Assembly: GCF_004349055.1 (NCBI RefSeq)
Contig: NZ_SMKX01000022.1
Span: forward strand, 1 to 64,000
Reading direction: 5' to 3'
Length of the DNA: 64,000 nucleotides
DNA from: Kribbella antibiotica
GTDB taxonomy: Bacteria; Actinomycetota; Actinomycetes; Propionibacteriales; Kribbellaceae
The notes beneath the pieces were generated by a model. That model saw only the letters and a program-made list of their open reading frames with translations, was not told the DNA's origin and searched no databases. Shown one piece after another: positions 52,990 through 64,000 of this stretch. The translations under genes and the position numbers were made by a program. The number at the start of each line of letters is the position of its first letter. Within the stretch, counting starts at the first letter, position 1.

Positions 52990-53997
52990 GTGGTGTTGGT
53001 GTCCGCGGGGAGTGCGCGTCCGAACGTCAGCCCGAGTGTGGCGATTGTCCTGTACGAGGCGTTCAAAAAGATGTCAGGCTCGTTGGTCGGCAACCACTAT
53101 GCGCTGTACGACTACGCGCGAGTGGTGATGACGAAGATCGCTCCTGTCGACGCGTTCTATGTCGGTCTGATCCATGCGGGGACAAGGGTTCGATTCCCTT
53201 ACAACTACGACGGCGCGCGGCATGACGACTCGGATGTCCACACCATCGGTCGGGACGGACTGACTGCCTGGCTGCTGGCCAACAAGCGGACTTATCGGTT
53301 CGACTTCGACCATGGCTTCTTGCTGAATGGGGGAATCGGGTTCGGCGATGTCCACAAACGCTCAGCCGATGCTGTGACGGTGCCGCTCCTGTCTCGGACC
53401 CTCGATGGGTCCGAGGTGTTCGGGATGATGTCGATGCAGAGCTATGAGCCGGGCGTCTACAGCGGGGAGGCAGTGGCTGCCTTCGAGTGGATCGCCGAGG
53501 TGATCGGCCGGGTGCTGGCGCGTGAACAGGAGGATCGCGATGCACTCGGGGTGTTGAACTCTGGGACCGGCGACGCCCTTGGCGATGACTTCCTGACGTC
53601 GGATCAGATGGTGGAGTACCTGGTCGAGCAGATCGGAGCGGTACGGCGGCGGGCGGAACAGGTGCTGGACGATGCCGGCATGACCGTGGACCGGGCTCGC
53701 GGTGTGCTGGCTGATGTCACCACCGACTGCCTACGCATCCAAGCAGAGCTGGTCGAGATGACCTTGCTGGTTGATGACCGCCCTACCTTGCGGTTCAACA
53801 CGTTGACACCTGCGGAGCAGACGATCGCTGTGCTGCTGGCTGACGGATTGAGTAATCAGGCGATCTCCGAGCAGTTGCGGCCGACGAGCATCAACACTGT
53901 CAAGACCCATCTGAAGAACATCGCCGGGAAGTACGGAATGAGCACTCGAGCGGAGATCGCTGCTGACGTGGTCAAGCACCTGGGGCTGGTGCACTAG
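52990..53997 (+). CDS. GAF domain LuxR-family transcriptional regulator
   Basis: 335 aa from GTG 52990. Residues about 20-190 are a GAF-like sensor (YARVVMTKIAPVDAFYVGLI; LSRTLDGSEVFGMMSMQSYE). A helical linker follows (VRRRAEQVLDDAGMTVDRAR). The last 65 residues are a LuxR helix-turn-helix (LTPAEQTIAVLLADGLSNQA, INTVKTHLKNIAGKYGMSTR). There is no receiver domain, so it is not an orthodox DosR or NarL regulator. The target is unknown; it may act at the palindrome upstream. Confidence 0.88.
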   Translation: MVLVSAGSARPNVSPSVAIVLYEAFKKMSGSLVGNHYALYDYARVVMTKIAPVDAFYVGLIHAGTRVRFPYNYDGARHDDSDVHTIGRDGLTAWLLANKRTYRFDFDHGFLLNGGIGFGDVHKRSADAVTVPLLSRTLDGSEVFGMMSMQSYEPGVYSGEAVAAFEWIAEVIGRVLAREQEDRDALGVLNSGTGDALGDDFLTSDQMVEYLVEQIGAVRRRAEQVLDDAGMTVDRARGVLADVTTDCLRIQAELVEMTLLVDDRPTLRFNTLTPAEQTIAVLLADGLSNQAISEQLRPTSINTVKTHLKNIAGKYGMSTRAEIAADVVKHLGLVH

Positions 53998-54320: not shown

Positions 54321-55451
54321 TTAGCGAGGGCAGGTCGGGTCCATCAGGACCAAGCGCATTGAGATCGCCTCCACCGGGCCGTTCGGAGCGTGGTAGCCGG
54401 TCCAGTCGATGCCCACCCCTTGGGTCAGAATGCGCTGGCCCGGCACTCCCAGCTCGACCAAGATCCCTTTCGCGGCGTTGGCCCGAGCCTTCGACAGCGG
54501 ATTGCTCGGATTGTTCTCCTTGTACGCCGTGGTGCCCGTGAGCACGATGTTGAACCCGGTCTGCTTGAGACCCTTCGCCAGCCCCCGAAGCGCATCCCGG
54601 GCGCGGTGCCGGTCGATGAAGGTTGCGCTGTCCGATGCGAAGCCCAGCTGCGCTTCGTTGAACTTGAACTGCCTGCAGAGGTTCCTCGGGTCCGGTGGAG
54701 CTGGTCGCTTCGTCACGCCAACGGTGGGTAGTGAGGCCGCACGGCGGCCGGCTGGCAACGAGTCCGATGCGATCTGGATCGGTTTCACTGCTCCCGCCTC
54801 GGCCAGGACGTCGGTCCATAGCGCGGTGAGCCGGGCGGAGTCCGGGGAGGTCAAGCGTCCTTGAGGTGCGGCTGTCTGGCCGAGTCCGGTCATCAGCACC
54901 GAGATTCCGTTGAGATCGGGCGAGTAGTGTCCAGCCTTCAGCTTTTTGCCGATCGTAACCGGGTCGCTGTCGAGCACCGACAGATCCTTCAGCGACAGCG
55001 GCCCGGTGGTGTCCAGGCCGCTGTCGATGGTGATGATCTGCTTCGGCCCGGGCAGCGAACTGATGTTGTCCCGGGCGACCTTGATCGCGGAGAACAAGCT
55101 GGCCTCTCCGGCGTCCGCTGGGTACTTCGTCACGATCGACGGGATCTCCTTGAGTAGCTTCTTGGTGAACTGCTCGCAGGCTTTTGTGGTCCCGTGTGTG
55201 CAGGCCAGGTCGCTCTTCGCCACCATCTTCGGATCCCCGGTCACCGAGACGATAACGAGCCGGTCGCCGCGCTCGATCGCGGCGTTCAGCGCAGCACTTG
55301 CGGCCTGCGTCAGCAAGGGGGCCGGCATGTTCTGCCGATTCCCGATGACCAGCGCCGTAGCACCGCCGTGCTGCTCGGGCGGGCCGCACCCGGTAAGGCC
55401 GAGCAAGGCGGCACAGACCAGACCGACGGTGAGAATACGTGGTATTTGCAT
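54321..55451 (-). CDS. Lipoprotein with C-terminal OmpA-like peptidoglycan-binding domain
   Basis: 376 aa from ATG 55451 (GAGGAACATC upstream). Signal: MQIPRILTVGLVCAALLGLT with lipobox LTGC and Cys22. The middle about 200 residues (LVIVSVTGDPKMVAKSDLAC; IITIDSGLDTTGPLSLKDLS) look like a von-Willebrand-A/Rossmann-type domain. The last about 120 residues resemble OmpA_C: FNEAQLGFASDSATFIDRHR, LTGTTAYKENNPSNPLSKAR, AANAAKGILVELG-like. It is probably anchored in the outer leaflet and attached to the wall. It is last in the leftward arm of the divergent locus. Confidence 0.85.
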   Translation of the reverse strand: MQIPRILTVGLVCAALLGLTGCGPPEQHGGATALVIGNRQNMPAPLLTQAASAALNAAIERGDRLVIVSVTGDPKMVAKSDLACTHGTTKACEQFTKKLLKEIPSIVTKYPADAGEASLFSAIKVARDNISSLPGPKQIITIDSGLDTTGPLSLKDLSVLDSDPVTIGKKLKAGHYSPDLNGISVLMTGLGQTAAPQGRLTSPDSARLTALWTDVLAEAGAVKPIQIASDSLPAGRRAASLPTVGVTKRPAPPDPRNLCRQFKFNEAQLGFASDSATFIDRHRARDALRGLAKGLKQTGFNIVLTGTTAYKENNPSNPLSKARANAAKGILVELGVPGQRILTQGVGIDWTGYHAPNGPVEAISMRLVLMDPTCPR

Positions 55452-55461
55452 GAGATGTTCC

Positions 55462-56253
55462 TCAGGTTCCGGGATCGGTGCGGCGTCGTGGGGTGTAGGC
55501 CAGCAGTACTTCCGTTGCCTCGGGCTCACCGAGGTTGCGGCTGATCCGCTCGACCTTCTCCTCGTGGGCAATGCCGGCGAAGCCCTCCGCCAGTTGTTCC
55601 TCCAGCAGCTGCGCCTCTTGCAGACGAGTGGCGTCGGATCGAAGATCACTCAGTAAGTGACCCTCCGTCGTGGCCGACTCGCGCTCGCGCCCGAGGCGCC
55701 GGAGCAACCAGTCGCGCTCTCCGGACAGTTCGTTGAGCAAGCGTTGGCGGTGCCGGTCATACGCATGCTTCGACGCCAGGATCGCGGTCGCCGAGAACAC
55801 GATCGCCAGCAGGACGGCGACGAACAGCCGTTCGCGAAGGGAGTCGGAGTCCGCAGCGGAGGTACCGGCGAACGGATCATCGATGCCTGTACCGAGGGTA
55901 GTTGTGTCTCCGATCGGGCTGAAGGTCAGCCGAATGAGCGCCATCGCTGTCCCCAGAGCCAGCCACAACAGGCCGGTCAGCAGGAGGACCGGAAGCGTTA
56001 TGTGCTCACGTCGTCGACGTTGGCTGAGAGCAGCGCCGAAGATCCAGGGCAGGAGGATCGAGACTCCTGTACAGCCGGCCGTGACCACCAGCGCGATCGT
56101 GTCGCTGGCATCTTGCAGCAGCAGTTGCGTGTTGAGATAGAAGCCCCAGCCGTCGACTGTCGCCAGCCCGAGTACCAGCACCCACCAGCCGACTTCCCGC
56201 GCCCAACGGTTCCAGCGCTGCGGTGCTATCGAGGTCACGTTGTAGATGCTCAT
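55462..56253 (-). CDS. Four-helix membrane protein with cytosolic coiled coil
   Basis: 263 aa from ATG 56253, overlapping the previous stop (ATGA). Four hydrophobic segments: WWVLVLGLATVDGWGFYL; ALVVTAGCTGVSILLPWIF; VLLLTGLLWLALGTAMALI; LFVAVLLAIVFSATAILA. A Glu/Arg/Leu-rich helical tail follows (RLLNELSGERDWLLRRLGRE; LQEAQLLEEQLAEGFAGIAH). No family is recognised. With the OmpA-like lipoprotein 10 bp downstream it could form an envelope-spanning anchor, by analogy with TssL/TagL-type or MotB-type complexes. Confidence 0.75.
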   Translation of the reverse strand: MSIYNVTSIAPQRWNRWAREVGWWVLVLGLATVDGWGFYLNTQLLLQDASDTIALVVTAGCTGVSILLPWIFGAALSQRRRREHITLPVLLLTGLLWLALGTAMALIRLTFSPIGDTTTLGTGIDDPFAGTSAADSDSLRERLFVAVLLAIVFSATAILASKHAYDRHRQRLLNELSGERDWLLRRLGRERESATTEGHLLSDLRSDATRLQEAQLLEEQLAEGFAGIAHEEKVERISRNLGEPEATEVLLAYTPRRRTDPGT

Positions 56254-56687
56254 GGTCGGCCCTCCGTCTGCTCCGCCTGCATGGCGAGCTCCACGTCCTT
56301 CAGCCGGGACTCGAGTTGTTCGATCCGGGCGTTCGTGCGGTCCAGGCGGCCCTGGCGTTCGGCGAGTTCGTGGCCGTACTTGCGCCGCCGCTCGAGGTGT
56401 TCGAGGGCGATCTGACGCTGCCATTGGTCCCGGACGAGCTCGACCCGGTCCTCGAGCACCCGCGGTGTGCCCTCGTCGATCGCGCCGTGGGCGTAGAGCT
56501 CGTCGACCCGGTCGCGGATCTCGAGCACCAGGCCGGCCGGGTCCGGACACGACGGATAGGCCTCGAACAGGGCCGGCTTCTGCCGGTCGATCTCGAGGTC
56601 TGCGACCGGCTGCCGGAGCCGCCGGAACCAGGCCACGATCCGCTGGATGATTCCGGGCACTGCTTCGTCCACGGACATGCTTGTCAT
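56250..56687 (-). CDS. Coiled-coil protein, unknown
   Basis: 145 aa. It starts with VDEAVPGIIQRIVAWFRRL, then a short conserved-looking segment with FEAYPSCPDPAGLVLEIRDR, and ends in a long charged helix (RRKYGHELAERQGRLDRTNA to LKDVELAMQAE). It overlaps both neighbours by 4 bp. Soluble and cytosolic, it may link the membrane protein downstream to the coiled-coil protein upstream. Confidence 0.72.
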   Translation of the reverse strand: MTSMSVDEAVPGIIQRIVAWFRRLRQPVADLEIDRQKPALFEAYPSCPDPAGLVLEIRDRVDELYAHGAIDEGTPRVLEDRVELVRDQWQRQIALEHLERRRKYGHELAERQGRLDRTNARIEQLESRLKDVELAMQAEQTEGRP

Positions 56688-57379
56688 TCCGACACCTCGC
56701 CGGCCCAGCCGCCCATCCGGACGAGCTGCTCGGCGAGTTCGGCCGGTACGGGCGGCACGTCTTGATCGAGCCGATCGGCCAGGAAGCTTCGGTGCCGGTG
56801 ATGCTTGACGAGGCTCTCGTCGAAGGTCGACCGCCGGAGCACCGCCAGCCGGTGGACCAGTTCGAGCTCCGTCTCGTACCGCAGGTTCATGGTCCGCAGT
56901 TTGGCCACGAGCTTCGCCTGCCGCTCAACCGCGGTGGCCAGTTTCGTGGACGTCTTCGAAGCTGCCGCCGCTGCCTCGGTCAGGGCCCGCCGCCGCACCC
57001 GCGCCCGGCGTGCGCGCGCCACCTGGTCCAGCTCGGGCGTCGATGGCGGCGTCGATCGCAGCTGGTTCAACTGCTTGCTGTCGCGGACCTCCTGGTCCCG
57101 CAGCTCAGCGATCTGCCGATCCAGTACGGCGAGTTCCTCGACCGTCGACAGAAGCTCGGACGTCAGGATCTGCCGCAGCCGGCTGAGTGCTTCGTCCCGC
57201 TGGGCGAAGAAGAGCTCACGCTCCTGGGTGGTCAGCGGTCCGGTGTCCAGTTCGAGCAGTGGCTCGTCCCGCCGGGCCACCCGGAGCGCATCCCGGCGCA
57301 GCCGGCGCCGCTCCCGCCGACCTAGCTGCTCAGTACCGGACGTCAGCTCGGCCACGTCGGTACCCCCGCCTACTCGCAT
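56684..57379 (-). CDS. Long coiled-coil protein, unknown
   Basis: 231 aa from ATG 57379 (GGGAAG upstream). It is almost all helical: RRERRRLRRDALRVARRDEP, LFFAQRDEALSRLRQILTSE, then two heptad blocks (AVLDRQIAELRDQEVRDSKQ; TAVERQAKLVAKLRTMNLRY). It is basic at the N-terminus and in the central ARRARVRRR. First gene of the leftward arm, overlapping the next gene by 4 bp. No enzymatic motif is visible. Confidence 0.72.
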   Translation of the reverse strand: MRVGGGTDVAELTSGTEQLGRRERRRLRRDALRVARRDEPLLELDTGPLTTQERELFFAQRDEALSRLRQILTSELLSTVEELAVLDRQIAELRDQEVRDSKQLNQLRSTPPSTPELDQVARARRARVRRRALTEAAAAASKTSTKLATAVERQAKLVAKLRTMNLRYETELELVHRLAVLRRSTFDESLVKHHRHRSFLADRLDQDVPPVPAELAEQLVRMGGWAGEVSE

Positions 57380-57418
57380 CGTTGCTTCCCTTCGCCACGC
57401 AAGGCCTACTGCCTCGCA

Positions 57419-57453
57419 CTGACGGACAAACCGATCCCGGCTCTGTCCGTCAG
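57419..57453. promoter_or_regulatory. Perfect inverted repeat in the divergent promoter of the AAA+/FHA/kinase locus
   Basis: CTGACGGACA at 57419-57428 and TGTCCGTCAG at 57444-57453, 10-bp perfect arms with a 15-nt spacer, between starts at 57379 and 57478. It could coordinate both arms through one regulator, or form a leader hairpin for the rightward gene. Confidence 0.6.
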
Positions 57454-57477
57454 GGCGTGAAGACGAGAGGAACCGGT

Positions 57478-58533
57478 GTGAGCAGTCAACGAGTGGTCAG
57501 CTTCGAGCTGACCGAGGCCCAGCGGGCCCAGGTCCGCCGCGTCGTGGCCCTCAACCGAGACATCAGCACCGGCCGGGTCGAGCGCGCCCGGAAACGGATG
57601 CTCGCGCAACTCGACCGGCTGACCGCGACGGTCCCGGCCGTGGCGCTGCCGTCGCGGGCAGCCGTCGACGCGGCCTTCGACAAAACCACCGATGCCGACC
57701 GGCCGTCAGGGGAGACTGTCGTTCTCGCAAAGCAGCTCAGTCAGGCCCGGGCTAGTACGGCGACCGACGACCGCCTGGTCGAGTCACTTCTCGTCCGGGT
57801 GCCCGCCATCGAGTCGTTGCCGGAAGCGGTGACGACGGCCGTGGCCGAGGTCAGGTCGGCGACGGCTGCACAGCGCGGCGCAGCCGTCGAGACCTTGAAG
57901 GAGGCAGTCGAGGCGGCCATCGCAAGGTGTCGCGATCGCGAGCAGAGCCAGGTCGAACTCGACCACGCGACCGCGATCAGCGACGCATTGAGTGCCCTAG
58001 GCAACGAGCTGCGGGAGAGTCTTCGGGTGAAGGTGAAGCAGCTGCAGGCCGACATCGCCGCGGCGGCCGAGCGGCACGCCGGCGGGGACGACGTAGTGTC
58101 GAAGGAGCTCGTCGTCAGCGCCACCAAGCTCCGGAAGGAATTCAGCCAGGACGAGGACGACGCGCACACTCTCGCGATTCTCGCCGGCCTGTGGCGCGAC
58201 CTCGGCTACGAGGTCGACGTCGGAGCCGACCTGTTCGTTGCCCACGCCGGCCACGACCGCGGCGTTGCTGTCCGGGTGGTCAACGGTGCCGCGATCGCCC
58301 AACAGGTCGGCATCACCAACGAACACGGCCAACGCCGCACCCCGACCCCGGGGTCGCACGACGCCGTCTGCGCTGTGGCTGCCCAAGTAGAGCAACGAGC
58401 AGGTAAGGCGGGCCTTCAGGCGACCCATTGCGCCGTGGAGAACGACGAGAGGACACCACTCGCAACGGCCGTCGTGAGAACGATCACCAACGGCTCGGTC
58501 GCTGAGCCACGACACATGCACCACGGAGAATGA
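57478..58533 (+). CDS. Coiled-coil protein with small C-terminal domain, unknown
   Basis: 351 aa from GTG 57478 (GAGAGG upstream). Residues 1 to about 230 are helical and charged (FELTEAQRAQVRRVVALNRD; AVETLKEAVEAAIARCRDRE). The last about 125 residues are globular: ILAGLWRDLGYEVDVGADLF, VAHAGHDRGVAVRVVNGAAI and SHDAVCAVAAQVEQRAGKAG. I do not recognise the domain. First gene of the rightward arm, followed after 2 bp by the AAA+ gene; it may be its adaptor or scaffold. Confidence 0.75.
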   Translation: MSSQRVVSFELTEAQRAQVRRVVALNRDISTGRVERARKRMLAQLDRLTATVPAVALPSRAAVDAAFDKTTDADRPSGETVVLAKQLSQARASTATDDRLVESLLVRVPAIESLPEAVTTAVAEVRSATAAQRGAAVETLKEAVEAAIARCRDREQSQVELDHATAISDALSALGNELRESLRVKVKQLQADIAAAAERHAGGDDVVSKELVVSATKLRKEFSQDEDDAHTLAILAGLWRDLGYEVDVGADLFVAHAGHDRGVAVRVVNGAAIAQQVGITNEHGQRRTPTPGSHDAVCAVAAQVEQRAGKAGLQATHCAVENDERTPLATAVVRTITNGSVAEPRHMHHGE

Positions 58534-58535
58534 CC

Positions 58536-60401
58536 ATGAGCGATCTTCCGGAGTGGCTCAGCGAACTGAGCATCCGCCTGGCCACCAGCCCGCACCTCGT
58601 CCTCGTCGGCGCCCCGAACGAGCAACACCTGCTACCTGCCGGCGACGGCAGACCGGTGTGGCGGACCTTCACCCACGCAGTCACCGGCACACTCCTCAAC
58701 TCGGGCTACTCACTTGTGCTCCAGTGGAGTGTGGACGGCGGTCTCACTCCGATCGCGGAGGCGGCACCGGGCCTTGCCGACCAGCTCCTCGGCGGTCACG
58801 GCGGACAGTCCGGCGACGAGGTGATCGGCGACGCGAAGTCCCTGATGAGCGCACTGCGCGTGGTCGACGCATTCAGCCCGAGTGGTACCGGCATGAGCGG
58901 CCGGGCCGCCCTGATCGTCATGGGCGCCGAACGCCTCGCCGAGAGCTCGTCCGCCTCTCCGTTGCGTGAAGTGTTCGCGGTGGCCCAGCAACGGGCGCTC
59001 GCCGCCGTACCGCTGCCGTCCGGGGAGACCCGCGGCCAGCTCTTCAACACCGTCGTGTGGACGGTCGACCGCGAGCACGATCTGCCCAACTGGTACCTGA
59101 TGACCCGGGGCGTCCATGTTCTGTCCATCCCGCTGCCAGACCAGACCACCCGGCGACAAGTGGCCCGCTCGGTCGTCTCCGGCTTCCAGGGGTACCGCGA
59201 CCTCAGCGAGGAAGAGCGCACCTCGGCCGGCTGGCAACTTGCCGACTTGTGTGAGGGCATGACCCAGGCGCAGATGCGGGAGGTGGGCCGGTTCGCGGGT
59301 GACCGGAAGGTCGAGGTGGCCCACCTCGAGGACGCGGTGCGCGGAACCAGGTCGGGACTGCGCGAGTCGCCCTGGCGTTCGGACGTGATGCGGGCCCGCG
59401 TCGTACGAGCCGGTCGCATCCTGCTCGAGAAGGAACCGCCCGGTGACTCGGGCATCAGCGTCGTCCGCGGGCAGAGGCCGGCGGTTCGTCAAGCGGTCGA
59501 CGTGCTCAGCCGCAGCGTGACCGGCCTGTCCGACTGGGACGAGTCGGAACACTCGAGCCGGCCGCGCGGCGTCCTCTTCCTGGCCGGTCCGACCGGTGTC
59601 GGCAAGACCTTCCTTGCCAAGCAACTCGCGATCGCCGTCTTCGGCCGGGTGGAGGCGATGGTCCGGTTCGACATGAGCGAGTACGCGACTTCGCACAGCG
59701 AGGCCCGGCTGATCGGCTCACCACCGGGGTACGTCGGCTACGAGTCCGGCGGCCAGCTCACGAACGCCGTCCGGCAGCGGCCCTGCTCGCTGTTGCTGTT
59801 CGACGAGATCGACAAGGCGCATCCGTTGGTACTGGACAAGTTCCTGCAGATCCTGGAAGACGGCCGGCTCACCGACGGTTCGGGCAGTACGGTGCATTTC
59901 GGCGAGACGCTGCTCGTCTTCACCTCGAACCTGGGCATCTACCGCCGCGACGGTGAGATCGACAGCGGGAAGCCGCTGGTTCTTCCTGGCGAGCCGTACG
60001 ACCAGGTCGAGTCGAAGGTGCGGGCCGAGGTCAACCGGCATTTCACCTCGGTGCTCAAGCGACCGGAGATCCTGAACCGGATCGGCGACAACATCCTGGT
60101 CTTCGACTATCTGTCCGAACAGACCGCGCGCGACCTTCTGCAGGACAAGGTCGACACCCTGAGCCGCACCGTCAAGGCACGCCGGGACGTCGAGGTCCGG
60201 TTCGGAGTACAGGTGCTGTCCGAGCTGGGCGACATCGTCGCCGGCGAGGAGGTTCGGCAGTTCGGTGGCCGCGGGGTGAAGAACGTCGTCGAGAGCCGCT
60301 TGGTGAATCCGCTCGGCCGCGAGCTCCTCGAGCACGGTCCCGGCTCCGTGCTGCGGGTTGACGCACTCACCTCCGACGGTGTCCGGCTGACGGGCGGCTG
60401 A
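58536..60401 (+). CDS. AAA+ ATPase of Clp type with degenerate first and intact second module
   Basis: 621 aa from ATG 58536 (GGAG seven bases upstream). Residues 1 to about 290 look like a decayed AAA module: LVLVGAPNEQHLL occupies the strand position but there is no GxxGxGK. Residues about 300-621 are a ClpA/B/ClpV D2-like module: Walker A GPTGVGKT (351-358), pore loop GYVGYESGG (398-406), Walker B LLLFDEIDKAH (419 onward), sensor 1 TSNLG, Arg-finger region LNRIGDNILVF, and a Clp C-terminal small domain. It should form a hexamer that threads or remodels protein. No protease-binding IGF/L loop is obvious. Confidence 0.88.
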   Translation: MSDLPEWLSELSIRLATSPHLVLVGAPNEQHLLPAGDGRPVWRTFTHAVTGTLLNSGYSLVLQWSVDGGLTPIAEAAPGLADQLLGGHGGQSGDEVIGDAKSLMSALRVVDAFSPSGTGMSGRAALIVMGAERLAESSSASPLREVFAVAQQRALAAVPLPSGETRGQLFNTVVWTVDREHDLPNWYLMTRGVHVLSIPLPDQTTRRQVARSVVSGFQGYRDLSEEERTSAGWQLADLCEGMTQAQMREVGRFAGDRKVEVAHLEDAVRGTRSGLRESPWRSDVMRARVVRAGRILLEKEPPGDSGISVVRGQRPAVRQAVDVLSRSVTGLSDWDESEHSSRPRGVLFLAGPTGVGKTFLAKQLAIAVFGRVEAMVRFDMSEYATSHSEARLIGSPPGYVGYESGGQLTNAVRQRPCSLLLFDEIDKAHPLVLDKFLQILEDGRLTDGSGSTVHFGETLLVFTSNLGIYRRDGEIDSGKPLVLPGEPYDQVESKVRAEVNRHFTSVLKRPEILNRIGDNILVFDYLSEQTARDLLQDKVDTLSRTVKARRDVEVRFGVQVLSELGDIVAGEEVRQFGGRGVKNVVESRLVNPLGRELLEHGPGSVLRVDALTSDGVRLTGG

Positions 60402-60403
60402 GG

Positions 60404-61030
60404 ATGCAGATCCTGATCAGCCGGACGGCCTTCCCGGTGCAGGCGCTGGGCCCCGGTGACCGGGCCGCGATCTGGATGCAGGGGTGTTCGATCCACTGCT
60501 CCGGCTGCGTCGCCCAGGACACCTGGGGTACGCCGGGGTCCACCCGCAGGCAGGTCGGCGACGTTCTGGACTGGCTCGGCTCGCTCGACGACGTCGACGG
60601 CGTCACGATCAGCGGCGGCGAGCCCACCGACCAACCGGAAGCCCTGCAAGCACTGATCGCCGGTGTCCGCCGGACCAGGCCGATGGTCGACATCCTCGTC
60701 TATACCGGCCGTTCCGCCCGGTGGGTGCTGAGCCGTGGACGCGCGATGATTGCGGGCGCGGACGCGATCATCACCGAACCCTTCGTCCAGGCCGAGGCCG
60801 GCCACCTCCCGCTCCGCGGCTCGGACAACCAGCAGCTGATCGCGCTGACCCCGCTCGGCAAGGACCGGTACGTCGATGGTCCGCTGCCGGACCGGCGCCG
60901 GATCCAGCTGGACGTCGCCGACGGCGAGATCAGGATGATCGGCATCCCCACGCCCGGCGTACTGACGGAACTCGTCCGGCGCGCAGCCGCGGCCGGACTC
61001 TCCTTCCGGGGCACGTCATGGCAGGACTAA
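60404..61030 (+). CDS. Radical SAM protein of the NrdG/PflA activase type
   Basis: 208 aa, 2 bp after the AAA+ stop. The iron-sulfur motif is MQGCSIHCSGC with Cys28, Cys32 and Cys35 (CX3CX2C). The SAM-binding GGE motif is TISGGEPTDQPEAL, with ILVYTGRSARWVL and DAIITEPFVQAEAG downstream. Length and layout match single-cluster activating enzymes such as NrdG. No glycyl-radical partner is encoded nearby, so its substrate is probably a protein or cofactor in this locus. It overlaps the FHA gene by 13 bp. Confidence 0.87.
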   Translation: MQILISRTAFPVQALGPGDRAAIWMQGCSIHCSGCVAQDTWGTPGSTRRQVGDVLDWLGSLDDVDGVTISGGEPTDQPEALQALIAGVRRTRPMVDILVYTGRSARWVLSRGRAMIAGADAIITEPFVQAEAGHLPLRGSDNQQLIALTPLGKDRYVDGPLPDRRRIQLDVADGEIRMIGIPTPGVLTELVRRAAAAGLSFRGTSWQD

Positions 61031-61509
61031 CCTGCGCGCACTGTGGCCAGGGCTTCGCGGACGAGTGGGCCACCGCCTGCATCGAGGGCCACGAACGGAT
61101 GGCCGACGAGGTCAGCTGGGCCGAACCACAGCCGATCCAGAGTTCCGGCACCTCGCAGCCGGTCACGCCGGTTGCGGACCACCAGGTCCAGGTGCTCGTC
61201 AACCTGGACGGCCGAGCGATGACGATCGCCAGGAACGACTTCGTCCTCGGGCGGCAACGGACGGCGGACAGCCCGCTCGCGCACCTGCTCGACAACTACC
61301 CGAACGTCTCCCGCAACCACGTCCAGGTCAGCGTGCTCCACGATCACTTCCTGATCGTGGACGAGATATCCACCAACAACACCTTCGTCGACGAGACTCC
61401 GATCCGGGGACTCGGGCCGCAGCGTCTGGAGGCCCGCGGGTCGTTGCGGCTGGCCCGCAACTGCTACCTGTCGCTGGCCATCCTCGACGATCCCGCGGGG
61501 CGCCGATGA
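61018..61509 (+). CDS. FHA domain protein with N-terminal zinc-ribbon-like motif
   Basis: 163 aa from ATG 61018. Residues 1-25 contain CAHCG and a third Cys in EWATAC, a small ribbon or knuckle. Residues about 55-160 are an FHA domain: FVLGRQ, SPLAHLLDNYPNVSRNHVQV (Ser98, Arg99, Asn100, His101) and EISTNNTFVDE (Asn120-Asn121). The phosphothreonine-binding Arg, Ser and Asn are present. It should bind a Thr-phosphorylated partner made by the kinase encoded immediately downstream. It overlaps genes on both sides. Confidence 0.9.
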   Translation: MAGLTCAHCGQGFADEWATACIEGHERMADEVSWAEPQPIQSSGTSQPVTPVADHQVQVLVNLDGRAMTIARNDFVLGRQRTADSPLAHLLDNYPNVSRNHVQVSVLHDHFLIVDEISTNNTFVDETPIRGLGPQRLEARGSLRLARNCYLSLAILDDPAGRR

Positions 61510-63377
61510 CCACCACCCTGCCGTCGCCGCCATCTCCACCGGCGACCGAGATCGATCCGCCGTCCGCCGCGACGCCGAACGGCCAGGGTCCGCCGCCGAC
61601 GGAGGCCGACCGCGCGGACCACGAGGAGGGGCTACCGAGCCATCCACCGAGCTGGCAGGACCTCGGTGACGGCACCGAGCTGCCCTGGAGCGAGCACGCC
61701 CGGATCACCCGCTTCACGACCGCGCAGTATGGCGAGGTCGTGGTGAAGGCTTATCGCAGCCGTGGCGATGATCGCCGGCGCATCTGGGACGCCTGGGAGA
61801 ACTGCCGGACCAATGGCGCTTCGCTGACCCCGCTGCTGCGTACTCACCTTGAGAACGGGATCGCTTTCGAGCTGATGCCGTACCGCCCGGCTCGTTCGGT
61901 GTACGAGGTATTCGCAGCCGGGGGTGCGTGGCCGCGAACACCACGCACCACGAAGGAGCTGGAGGCGATCCTTCGGCAGGTCGCCGACACCCTCGCGATC
62001 CTGCACGCCGAACAAGCCGACGGAAGGTTCGCCGTGCACGGCGACATCAAGCCGGCCAACCTGCTGGTCGAGCGCATCGATCAGCTCCGCATCGAACTGA
62101 GCGACACGGAGTCCGTCGTGCTCGTCGACGAGCTGGATCCAGCCCGGCCAGGGCGGCACGCGACTGCGGCGTACCAGGCTCCTGAGGCCGGGACCGTCGT
62201 CCATCGCCCGCAGGACTACTGGTCGCTAGGCATGTCCCTGGTCGAGCTCGGCACCGGCCGGCATCCGTACCAACGCCCCAACGGACAGTTCCACAGCCCC
62301 GCGACCATTCGGGCGGAGCTCGCACAGCGCGATCCGGAGATTCCGGAAGGTCTTGATAACCGCTGGCGATGGCTCGCCCAGGGGCTACTGGTCCGCGACA
62401 GCTCGCTCCGCTTCGGGCCCGACGAGATCGCTCGCTGGCTCGCCGGTGAGCCGGTGCCGGATGTCCCGTCGCGGCCCGAGCCGGCTCCGCCGACCGTCGA
62501 GACGCCGGAGCGCGGTCACACCTTCACCTTCGCCGGCACAACGTACGCCGGTCCACGCGAGCTGGCCGCGGCCATGGGTGCGCACTGGGCGGACACAGTC
62601 CGGCTGGTGCTGGGTCGCGATCTGGAGCACCTTGTCGGTTGGGCACAACAGGCCTGTTCGGCTCAGGTCGTAGGGCTCGTCGACGTACAGGAACGTCGTC
62701 GGCTCAACCTGATCAATGAGCACCGCGCGGCGGCCGAGCTCATCTGGTGCCTCGATCCGGAGTCGCCGCCGGACTTCCACGGCCGCAACTGCGATCGGGT
62801 CGGGCTGGGCGTGCTGGCCACGCAGGCTCTGCACGGCGATCCCGAGGCGGGCACGATCGTCACCAGGCTCTTCGAGTCGTCGGCGCTGGAGATTCTCGCC
62901 CACAGGCCGCAACACCAGGACCTGCAGCAGCTTGGCGATAGGTGGCGGCACCTGGTTCAGGTCGCGTTGGAACTGATGGCCCGGCGCCCGGCGGTGGGGC
63001 AGATGCCGACGGACGATCTGCTGGTGCCTCACCTCTTGAGCGCGGTCCTGTCGAGGCGGCGCAGCCACGCGCTCGCCGAACAGGCCGCGAGTTGCCTGAC
63101 GCCACGGTCGACCAACGTCGAATGGTTCCGCAGTCTGGCGTCGACTCCGAACGACGTCGATGCCGCCGCCCACCATGCGGTGATGGTGCTCACTGCTCCA
63201 CAGGCTGATCTGGAAGGAGCGGCCGTACACCCTGAGCTCGATGCGTGGGCGCGCGCCTATCTGGAACGCACGCTGGCCGCCCGCGAAGCTGCCCAGCAAG
63301 CTCCGCAGCAACCCCCGCGAGGCCCACTGGTCCGATTGTTGCGGGCGCTCTGGCGCCGTTGGAGGTACCGCCGATGA
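61506..63377 (+). CDS. Protein kinase-like protein with non-canonical DFG and long C-terminal region
   Basis: 623 aa from ATG 61506. A Pro-rich N-terminus is followed by a kinase domain (about 60-330): Lys81 in VVVKAY, catalytic loop HGDIKPAN (Asp180, Lys182, Asn185), activation segment ending YQAPEAG, and WSLGMSLVELGTGRHPY. Where DFG is expected, the best match is LVDELD (Asp208-Glu-Leu), after an inserted loop, and the glycine-rich loop is weak. The metal Asp may be kept, so it can be active or a pseudokinase. The remaining about 290 residues, TFTFAGTTYAGPRELAAAMG onward, are helical and unrecognised. No membrane segment is present. Confidence 0.85.
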   Translation: MTTTLPSPPSPPATEIDPPSAATPNGQGPPPTEADRADHEEGLPSHPPSWQDLGDGTELPWSEHARITRFTTAQYGEVVVKAYRSRGDDRRRIWDAWENCRTNGASLTPLLRTHLENGIAFELMPYRPARSVYEVFAAGGAWPRTPRTTKELEAILRQVADTLAILHAEQADGRFAVHGDIKPANLLVERIDQLRIELSDTESVVLVDELDPARPGRHATAAYQAPEAGTVVHRPQDYWSLGMSLVELGTGRHPYQRPNGQFHSPATIRAELAQRDPEIPEGLDNRWRWLAQGLLVRDSSLRFGPDEIARWLAGEPVPDVPSRPEPAPPTVETPERGHTFTFAGTTYAGPRELAAAMGAHWADTVRLVLGRDLEHLVGWAQQACSAQVVGLVDVQERRRLNLINEHRAAAELIWCLDPESPPDFHGRNCDRVGLGVLATQALHGDPEAGTIVTRLFESSALEILAHRPQHQDLQQLGDRWRHLVQVALELMARRPAVGQMPTDDLLVPHLLSAVLSRRRSHALAEQAASCLTPRSTNVEWFRSLASTPNDVDAAAHHAVMVLTAPQADLEGAAVHPELDAWARAYLERTLAAREAAQQAPQQPPRGPLVRLLRALWRRWRYRR

Positions 63378-63946
63378 TCATCAGCCTGCGATCCCGTCCT
63401 CAGCTCGGCCGAGCCAGTGCCGTCGGCGTCAACGGCTGGCGTCTGACGTGTACTTCGGACTCCGCGCTCGTGGTGCACGTAGCCGGCGCGGTCGCCATCC
63501 TTTTCGCCCGAGCGATCGGCCCGACCGCGCTTGCTGAGTTGGCAGTTGACGCCTGTCTCACCGACGGCAAGGATCCGGTCGCCATGCTGAGCGAGGCCAG
63601 AGCCCGATTGGCCCGGGAAGGCAGGGTTCTCGACGCTGTCGCCGTCCAGTCGGCCGCGGTTGTCCTGACACCTGAACGGACCGGCGCGATCGCCGTCTCC
63701 GGTGGGCTGCCGGTCTACCTGATCTCCGATGGCTACGCCGCCCGAATCGACCCAGATGTTGCCCAGAGCAACAGGGTTGAGGTGCGGGACTTCACGCTGG
63801 CAGCCGGTCAGCAGCTTCTGCTGGTCGACGAACCGCTGGAAGACAAGGGTATTGCGCTCGACTGGCAACCGTCGTACGGCGGGAGCGGGATCGAGCTGCT
63901 GACGGAGCGGGCCGGCGGCTTCGTCGTCGGCGTGTCCGTCAGTTGA
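63374..63946 (+). CDS. Possible PP2C-fold protein, unknown
   Basis: 190 aa from ATG 63374, overlapping the kinase stop (ATGA). The pattern ALVVHVAGAVAILFARAIGP, TALAELAVDACLTDGKDPVA and AVAVQSAAVVLTPERTGAIA, with VSGGLPVYLISDG, is beta-sandwich-like and follows the order of a PP2C core. The metal-binding Asp residues of active PP2C (DGxG, DGxxD) are not visible. It may be a degenerate phosphatase or a phospho-sensor. The assignment is tentative and based on fold and position next to the kinase. Confidence 0.6.
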   Translation: MIISLRSRPQLGRASAVGVNGWRLTCTSDSALVVHVAGAVAILFARAIGPTALAELAVDACLTDGKDPVAMLSEARARLAREGRVLDAVAVQSAAVVLTPERTGAIAVSGGLPVYLISDGYAARIDPDVAQSNRVEVRDFTLAAGQQLLLVDEPLEDKGIALDWQPSYGGSGIELLTERAGGFVVGVSVS

Positions 63947-63978
63947 CAGAGATTCACCATCAGACGACCGGGGGCGAG

Positions 63979-64000
63979 ATGACACCGACACCCACCGTGC
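63979..64000 (+). CDS. Start of the next gene in the rightward arm (partial)
   Basis: ATG at 63979 with GGGGGCGAG immediately upstream, then MTPTPTV before the window ends. The ribosome site and spacing suggest the operon continues to the right. Confidence 0.4.

Follow-up and report, generated by a model that had tools for sequence, protein, structure and literature searches.

Positions 54321-63946 of the window, by which we mean the first 64,000 nucleotides of contig NZ_SMKX01000022.1 of Kribbella antibiotica, hold ten open reading frames (ORFs) in two divergent, closely packed arms, in which neighbouring genes are either separated by 2 or 10 bp or share an overlap of 4 or 13 bp (Table 1; starts refined). 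The leftward arm encodes an OmpA-domain lipoprotein, a membrane protein (TM4) and two coiled-coil-like proteins (CC2 and CC1), and the rightward arm a further coiled-coil protein (CC0), an AAA+ protein, an NrdG-like radical SAM enzyme, an FHA protein, a predicted Ser/Thr-type kinase and a PP2C-like protein. On balance we favour the reading that these genes, together with those following them on the contig, form one system that runs from 54321 to contig 69752 and counts no fewer than 14 genes; it would carry an envelope anchor and a CHAT protease and belong to a broad family of kinase-controlled AAA/radical SAM conflict systems.

A preliminary description of the window had proposed ten genes in two tight divergent arms, a 98-bp interval between them and a divergent envelope-plus-phosphosignalling unit, and had suggested comparing neighbourhoods and following the locus rightwards. 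All the ORFs are present, the interval keeps its length with the refined starts, and the arms are also co-located in relatives. Of the five genes it listed for the rightward arm, all but the PP2C-like one are as described, but the arm goes on: the contig comprises 86,136 bases, and in the 20 kb examined past the window the arm continues through overlaps of 4-8 bp to contig 69752, adding a caspase-like CHAT protease, a helical-repeat protein and two further genes (U11 and U12), all missed by the description because of the window edge.

Linkage and distribution of the two arms

From the lipoprotein to U16 (54321-71702) the locus is syntenic gene for gene with a second genome of the genus (G013; G and L labels denote genomes and loci in our comparisons), with order and strands kept and protein identities of 82-96%, so the ten-gene arrangement is not a matter of chance. 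The N-terminal region of the AAA protein is found in five of the 38 genus genomes, our own included, and in the same version only in G013 besides our own. Profile searches with this region across the order (293 genomes, E 1e-6) and the phylum (396 genomes, E 1e-10), both with our own genome included, gave matches in 11 and 6 genomes respectively, and thus 16 distinct loci (own included), where a radical SAM relative lies in the AAA neighbourhood in every case and a kinase in 14.

A broader sample comes from the family of G496, in which the AAA gene occurs in 35 of 250 genomes at 38 places. Leaving out G496 itself and a short match in G1083, we compared 36 loci with reference proteins (tblastn, 1e-4), finding the AAA gene and a kinase in all 36, the radical SAM gene in 32, FHA and PP2C genes in 21 each, CHAT or TPR-CHAT in 19 and the coiled coil, recognisable by BLAST, in 19. 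Less frequent are U399 (11), a vWA gene (10), the OmpA lipoprotein and CC1 (6 each), TM4 (4, with L171 and L180 added by a second search), CC2, DO-GTPase, GAP1 and U16 (3 each) and RES (1). In an alignment scan of a named genome collection starting from the radical SAM enzyme, we compared 43 loci from the best 80 of 384 relatives; the AAA gene is also present in 20 of these 43, and those 20 include Undibacterium, Comamonadaceae, Methylocaldum, Gallionella, Bradyrhizobium, Actinomadura, Pseudonocardia, four Streptomyces, Rhodopirellula and Lachnospiraceae, while seven (L060, L061, L069, L084, L088, L092 and L100) have an Hsp70 match and no AAA match. Over 58 of 67 loci, pairwise distances between core proteins correlate with an r of 0.79 for AAA against radical SAM, 0.87 for AAA against kinase and 0.76 for radical SAM against kinase (0 of 2000 permutations in every case), a correlation that comes in part from shared subfamilies. 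The core consists of the AAA protein, the kinase and the NrdG-like radical SAM enzyme, in most cases with a coiled coil, and occurs in Actinobacteria, Proteobacteria and a Firmicute.

Relatives also tie the leftward arm to this core. G496 carries, on one strand, genes for TPR-CHAT, a second CHAT protein, CC1, CC2, TM4, the OmpA lipoprotein, kinase, coiled coil, AAA, FHA, U399 and the radical SAM enzyme. Among the six of the 36 loci in which left-arm genes adjoin the core, the single-strand layout recurs at L171, L180 and L200 and a divergent layout at L174, L181 and L187. Because relatives carry the left-arm set beside the kinase, coiled coil, AAA, FHA and radical SAM set, gene comparison argues that the two arms are one system, and the neighbourhood comparison thus speaks against their being unrelated.

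Around the core the partners change. CHAT is detected by Pfam at L050, L057, L131, L132 and L172, RES at L050 and L042, weak Macro-like matches at L042 and L055, and a caspase gene at L181 and near G496. Genes for E1 (ThiF) lie at the radical SAM-proximal ends of the OmpA-type loci L171, L180 and L200, joined at L180 by JAB and at L200 by a small ORF with a Gly-rich end that looks Ubl-like by eye and reaches no model. In G025 (L014) the same core stands beside a DO-GTPase1 gene (27.6 bits against a cut-off of 27) and a GAP1-M-like gene (23.0 bits, just under its cut-off of 24), with homologues in G030, and at L046 (10028-16925, Methylocaldum sp. 14B) type III CRISPR genes (Cmr2 and RAMP) directly follow the core. 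Kaur et al. 2020 (PMC7159879) describe conflict systems built from constant NTPase cores and variable effectors. A sporadic core with changing partners fits these regulated NTP-dependent conflict systems as far as gene content allows, a constant core, variable effectors and sporadic spread all being found here, and the conflict machine entertained in the preliminary description gains from this comparison.

Domain states of the encoded proteins

The description had recognised a Clp-type AAA protein from its GPTGVGKT and GYVGY motifs, and profile searches bear this out: PF07724 matches with an E value of 1.1e-45, and the best-scoring model is ClpB, over its second domain only (ClpB D2, 9.2e-70). 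The ClpV (TssH) model TIGR03345 reaches 182.8 bits against a cut-off of 884.95, lower than ClpB. In all 19 aligned members the second AAA domain keeps both Walker motifs (A and B), a pore loop of the form G-aromatic-x-G and a segment that reads GGRG or GARE, and sensor 1 is TSN in 18 and TTN in one. The ClpP-type loop has the motif IGF or IGL; none was recognised in this alignment between sensor 1 and the RPE/KPE segment. The first domain lacks Walker A, and the AlphaFold2 (AF2) model of residues 1-337 (predicted local distance difference test, pLDDT, 84.9) matches p97 D1, PAN, Vps4 and FtsH-type ATPases (Z scores from 12.7 down, over 190-259 residues, with root-mean-square deviations of 3.3-5.3 Å). 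Given this fold without Walker A and the intact motifs of the second domain, the sequence and model indicate that the protein pairs, in tandem, a dead first domain of classical type with a second, Clp-type domain that looks live.

The radical SAM enzyme, described earlier as activase-like, retains the NrdG motifs Cx3Cx2C (unchanged in 15 of 15 aligned sequences), GGEP and GSxNQ, and scores 73.9 bits with the NrdG model, under its cut-off of 126.1; a search of the genome did not find NrdD, the usual NrdG client. Upstream of the AAA gene in relatives, the coiled-coil partner often begins Met-Ser-Gly, followed in some by (Pro/Ser)-Lys-x-Tyr. A start-[ST]-G beginning occurs in 43 of 66 ORFs in this position, whereas a control frame gives 6 of 67; some of the 43 look like chance frames, and CC0 of the window itself begins MSSQ.

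Pfam also upholds the earlier assignments of the OmpA-like lipoprotein, the FHA protein and the kinase (Table 1), while the membrane protein, the three coiled-coil-like proteins and the PP2C-like product fall under every Pfam cut-off in a scan of the ten window products. The kinase carries its catalytic residues (K81, HGD at 178-180, KPAN and D200) and is predicted to be of Ser/Thr type. FHA domains are marked by GR, SRxH and NxT motifs, all readable in the FHA protein. For the proposed PP2C-fold protein the label is weak: Pfam PP2C finds no match, and a partial hhalign match to a PP2C profile (P 0.0011, HH-suite probability 20%) comes with a gene that holds the same slot near kinase and FHA genes as the PP2C genes of relatives. 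The product is probably a divergent PP2C-like protein and not a metal-dependent phosphatase. Beyond the window edge, the TPR label of the helical-repeat gene after CHAT was given by eye. In G496 each of the two CHAT genes exceeds the Pfam cut-off of 24 bits (165.6 and 45.7); the first, a TPR-CHAT, has the usual His and Cys, the second (L132 2892-6938) lacks both in the alignment and is possibly an inactive partner of the active one. The suggestion that U399 is a hidden PP2C, CHAT, U11 or U12 found no support.

In the envelope arm, the lipoprotein carries a lipobox-like LTGC, and its AF2 model (pLDDT 78.7) places at about residues 250-376 an OmpA domain with a structure near those of TagL, Pal and MotB (Z as high as 15.3). 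Its N-terminal α/β domain resembles the vWA domain of Rpn10 in one Foldseek row (E 5.9e-5); the vWA reading draws on this row and on topology, because the VIA rows span the OmpA part only. The vWA motif is DxSxS, which this domain lacks. The lipoprotein is 30% identical to its G496 homologue (2e-31), and TM4 corresponds to G496 TM4 with a shuffle z of 8.1 and an hhalign P of 6.7e-6 against a nine-row set, seven rows of which are distinct. Identification of the membrane protein as DUF4407 was dropped for want of hhalign support, though DUF4407 proteins occur at two relatives.

Proposed working and alternative readings

Building on gene content, linkage, domain states and distribution, we can picture a mechanism, although what it says of sensing, of the succession of steps, of the client and target and of the final effect is inferred. 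The lipoprotein would grip peptidoglycan through its OmpA domain, and its vWA-like domain, with TM4, CC1 and CC2, could sense an insult to the envelope. The kinase, with its catalytic residues in place, would phosphorylate members of the complex, the FHA protein would bind the phospho-sites, and the degenerate PP2C-like protein might read or buffer them. An AAA ring with dead first and live second domains would then act on a client, most likely CC0 encoded next door, and the lack of a recognisable ClpP loop suggests that the client would be remodelled and not degraded. The radical SAM enzyme may modify a component and so license it. Remodelling would free or assemble CHAT and its helical-repeat partner, CHAT would cut a cellular target, and the cell would stop or die, conceivably as an anti-invader suicide; in relatives the same core would be fitted with other effectors. 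In this one locus phosphorylation and radical chemistry are combined with an unfoldase and a caspase-like protease, as a defined unit open to testing. If the proposal is right, it would be a phospho-gated, wall-tethered bacterial death switch, its core common to very different effector systems in several phyla, and its radical SAM enzymes would be an activase family for which no glycyl-radical client is known.

A bolder extension, which we put forward only tentatively and hold to be doubtful, is that an AAA protein with dead D1 and Clp-type D2, an NrdG-like radical SAM enzyme, a coiled coil (often with a Met-Ser-Gly start) and a kinase make up a class of molecular switch of their own, equal in rank to MoxR-vWA and DO-GTPase-GAP1, with interchangeable effectors (CHAT, caspase, RES, E1/JAB-type conjugation, GTPase). 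A radical-made mark on the coiled coil, possibly a glycyl radical, would be read by the AAA ring, and the window would hold an envelope-sensing version that fires a caspase-like protease.

Several observations weigh against a single conflict system. The functional role of every member is read from genes alone, and sporadic loci of variable content can equally be metabolic or developmental. Among the first 16 loci the kinase was unmatched at L031 and L040 (an 11-kb stretch), and the radical SAM gene is missing, by profile search too, from L166, L172, L173 and L199 (4 of 36, one near a contig end), and may therefore be dispensable; the part of the distance correlation that comes from shared subfamilies also counts here. 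CC1 is marginal against G496 CC1 (shuffle z 3.3, hhalign P 0.026), and CC1 and CC2 agree with their G496 counterparts in place and rough size, not clearly in sequence. In the CHAT protease Cys262 aligns and His214 is one column off in the alignment, U11 and U12 gave no family match, similar lipoproteins stand without an AAA gene in stretches fetched around three other matches (G366, G870 and G879), and PADLOC 2.0 reports no system for the ten window products, its matches lying only in the kinase and AAA domains apart from a weak LmuB coiled-coil match (0.034).

The same genes could serve a chromosomal regulator of envelope homeostasis or development with no role in conflict, in which the lipoprotein would sense the wall, the kinase and FHA protein signal, the AAA protein remodel a coiled-coil scaffold and CHAT carry out processing. 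An OmpA-domain anchor and a membrane protein suit such a regulator, and the block shared with G013 also contains a LuxR-type gene and the Hsp70, J-domain and GrpE genes, a content resembling that of a stress-response locus. However, a core restricted to 5 of 38 genus and 11 of 293 order genomes, partners that vary among CHAT, caspase, RES, E1/JAB and GTPase genes, and CRISPR and nuclease genes among the neighbours fit it poorly, and we consider it rather unlikely. It seems improbable that the locus is simply a decayed form of the DO-GTPase/GAP1-N2 systems published as 'theme 3'. In G025 and G030 the AAA, radical SAM, coiled-coil and kinase set does lie beside genes for vWA, PP2C, DO-GTPase and GAP1 proteins, and the vWA gene of that version recurs in 10 of the 36 loci of the other family, but the frames of the window locus are intact and its stretches (L002/L003) gave no match to the G025 DO-GTPase and GAP1 queries (tblastn, 1e-4), for which reason a simple DO-GTPase system was also rejected for the window. 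DO-GTPase was found in 3 of 36 loci and in none of the proteobacterial loci compared, by a search (tblastn 1e-4) that can miss divergent ones.

It would be a considerable surprise if two unrelated operons merely diverged from one promoter by accident. Thirty of the 36 core loci have no recognisable left-arm lipoprotein at the tblastn threshold of 1e-4, and such lipoproteins occur elsewhere without AAA nearby; against this, G496 and six of the 36 loci have left-arm genes next to the core, arranged in two different ways, when this type of lipoprotein is found in only 5 of the 345 genomes of the class (own included). The preliminary description had lastly pointed to kinship with type VI or other contractile systems. 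The type VI regulatory set comprises a kinase, an FHA protein, a phosphatase, ClpV and TagL, and the window brings together a similar list of parts (kinase, FHA, PP2C-like, Clp-type AAA and OmpA-domain genes), with an OmpA domain structurally near TagL. The comparison fails at the machine itself: the description's remark that no sheath gene is visible extends to the whole genome, where VipB and Phage_sheath_1 have 0 matches (the controls did match, in 1 and 3 of the 14 genomes), the AAA protein scores far under the ClpV cut-off, below ClpB, and has a first domain of predicted classical AAA fold, and the long-form TssL model reaches 18.3 bits against a cut-off of 139.8. A contractile system, or a regulatory remnant of one, is scarcely credible on these results, and we rejected it.

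Neighbouring features and comparison with known systems

The DNA match between our genome (G000) and G013 runs, with small gaps, over 52792-76471 and ends on both sides inside the compared stretches, and therefore takes in the LuxR-type gene on the left and the Hsp70, J-domain and GrpE genes on the right (Table 1). At about 23.7 kb, the shared block looks like a mobile island, of which the GAF/LuxR-type regulator is a part while being an uncertain member of the system. The U15/U16 pair (contig 69886-71702) adjoins the window system and is also present in the DO-GTPase version in G025 (L014 16139-18174; 71-78% identity), with weak U16 relatives at L167, L175 and L197; it appears from sequence to be a shared module. 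Outside the block shared with G013, a trypsin-NucA fusion and a STAND-like ATPase (contig 77558-82649) resemble 'System 3' of Kaur et al. 2020 (PMC7159879).

Table 1. Features of the locus and its surroundings (positions are those of the contig, which coincide with those of the window up to 64,000)
Feature	Position	Strand	Basis or remark
GAF/LuxR-type regulator	52990-53997	+	GerE 34.6 bits (cut-off 23.5); GAF_2 20.9 bits, under cut-off 28.6
OmpA lipoprotein: vWA-like N-terminal and C-terminal OmpA peptidoglycan-binding domains	54321-55451	-	OmpA (PF00691) 29.9 bits (cut-off 27.2); LTGC; AF2
Membrane protein TM4, four hydrophobic helices (by eye), coiled-coil-like tail	55462-56253	-	ORF; G496 homologue in equivalent position
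Coiled-coil-like CC2	56250-56687	-	ORF; place and size (not sequence) agree with G496 CC2
Coiled-coil-like CC1	56684-57379	-	ORF; place agrees with G496 CC1, sequence marginal
98-bp divergent gap	57380-57477		Start codons ATG 57379, GTG 57478
Coiled-coil core partner CC0	57478-58533	+	Such a protein 5' of the AAA gene in many relatives
AAA+ protein: first domain (1-337) classical AAA, degenerate; second domain ClpB-D2-like, motifs intact	58530-60401	+	AAA_2 (PF07724) 156.1 bits (cut-off 27)
NrdG-like radical SAM enzyme, CxxxCxxC intact	60404-61030	+	Fer4_12 (PF13353) 78 bits (cut-off 22)
FHA protein, N-terminal zinc-ribbon-like segment (by eye)	61018-61509	+	FHA (PF00498) 34.2 bits (cut-off 20.7)
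Predicted Ser/Thr-type protein kinase, C-terminal half of no assigned family	61506-63377	+	Pkinase (PF00069) 54.5 bits (cut-off 31.7)
Divergent PP2C-like protein (probable)	63374-63946	+	Partial hhalign; same slot as PP2C genes in relatives
U11	63943-65298	+	Contig ORF; start inside window (63943-64000)
U12	65291-66727	+	Contig ORF; beyond window
CHAT protease	66724-67815	+	PF12770 45.2 bits (cut-off 24); beyond window
Helical-repeat protein, TPR-like by eye	67812-69752	+	No Pfam model reached; beyond window
U15	69886-70776	+	Beyond window
U16	70755-71702	-	Beyond window
Hsp70, 512 aa	72761-74299		Beyond window
J-domain/TPR protein	74303-75394		Beyond window
GrpE	75384-75866		Beyond window
Trypsin-NucA (Endonuclease_NS) fusion protein	77558-79645	-	Beyond window
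ATPase with AAA_16, read as STAND-type	79554-82649	-	Beyond window

Within the literature searched, which did not extend to the figures and source data of Kaur et al. 2020 or to most subscription papers and preprints, we found no description of the AAA, radical SAM, coiled-coil and kinase core or of its OmpA/CHAT version, and both appear undescribed to that extent. The AAA protein shares a second AAA domain, Walker A and B and the G-aromatic-x-G pore loop with the ClpB, ClpV and ClpA unfoldases, and differs from them in a classical-AAA-like first domain without Walker A and in having no recognised ClpP loop. The radical SAM enzyme resembles NrdG, the activase of anaerobic ribonucleotide reductase, in its motifs and PF13353 match, whereas it scores under the NrdG cut-off in a genome without a detected NrdD, and its gene is linked to AAA and kinase genes and elsewhere lies near Hsp70 genes. 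With TPR-CHAT and Craspase the locus has a CHAT protease in common, here with a separate helical-repeat gene after it; no RAMP match was seen among the locus products scanned, and the adjoining genes encode AAA and kinase proteins, not CRISPR components.

Closest as whole systems are two groups described in Kaur et al. 2020 (PMC7159879). The third theme of the GAP1-N2 systems comprises a kinase, PP2C, vWA and DO-GTPase, and the DO-GTPase version in G025 and G030, built on the same core as the window locus, fits it. Actinobacterial kinase, PP2C and vWA genes and membrane association are common ground; unlike theme 3, the window locus has no DO-GTPase/GAP1 match, carries an OmpA lipoprotein and CHAT, and gives no Pfam PP2C or VWA match among its ten window products, its vWA-like domain lying only inside the lipoprotein. 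The account of theme 3, in the section consulted, makes no mention of a Clp-type AAA protein, a radical SAM gene or a coiled coil. From the FtsH ternary systems the locus departs in the Clp/ClpB type of its second AAA domain, in its kinase/FHA control and in showing no MoxR gene, the sole AAA product among the 16 scanned (54321 to contig 71702) being the Clp-type one; it shares with them a tandem AAA protein with a dead first domain, a radical SAM gene, present in some of those systems, and E1/JAB and caspase genes near its relatives.

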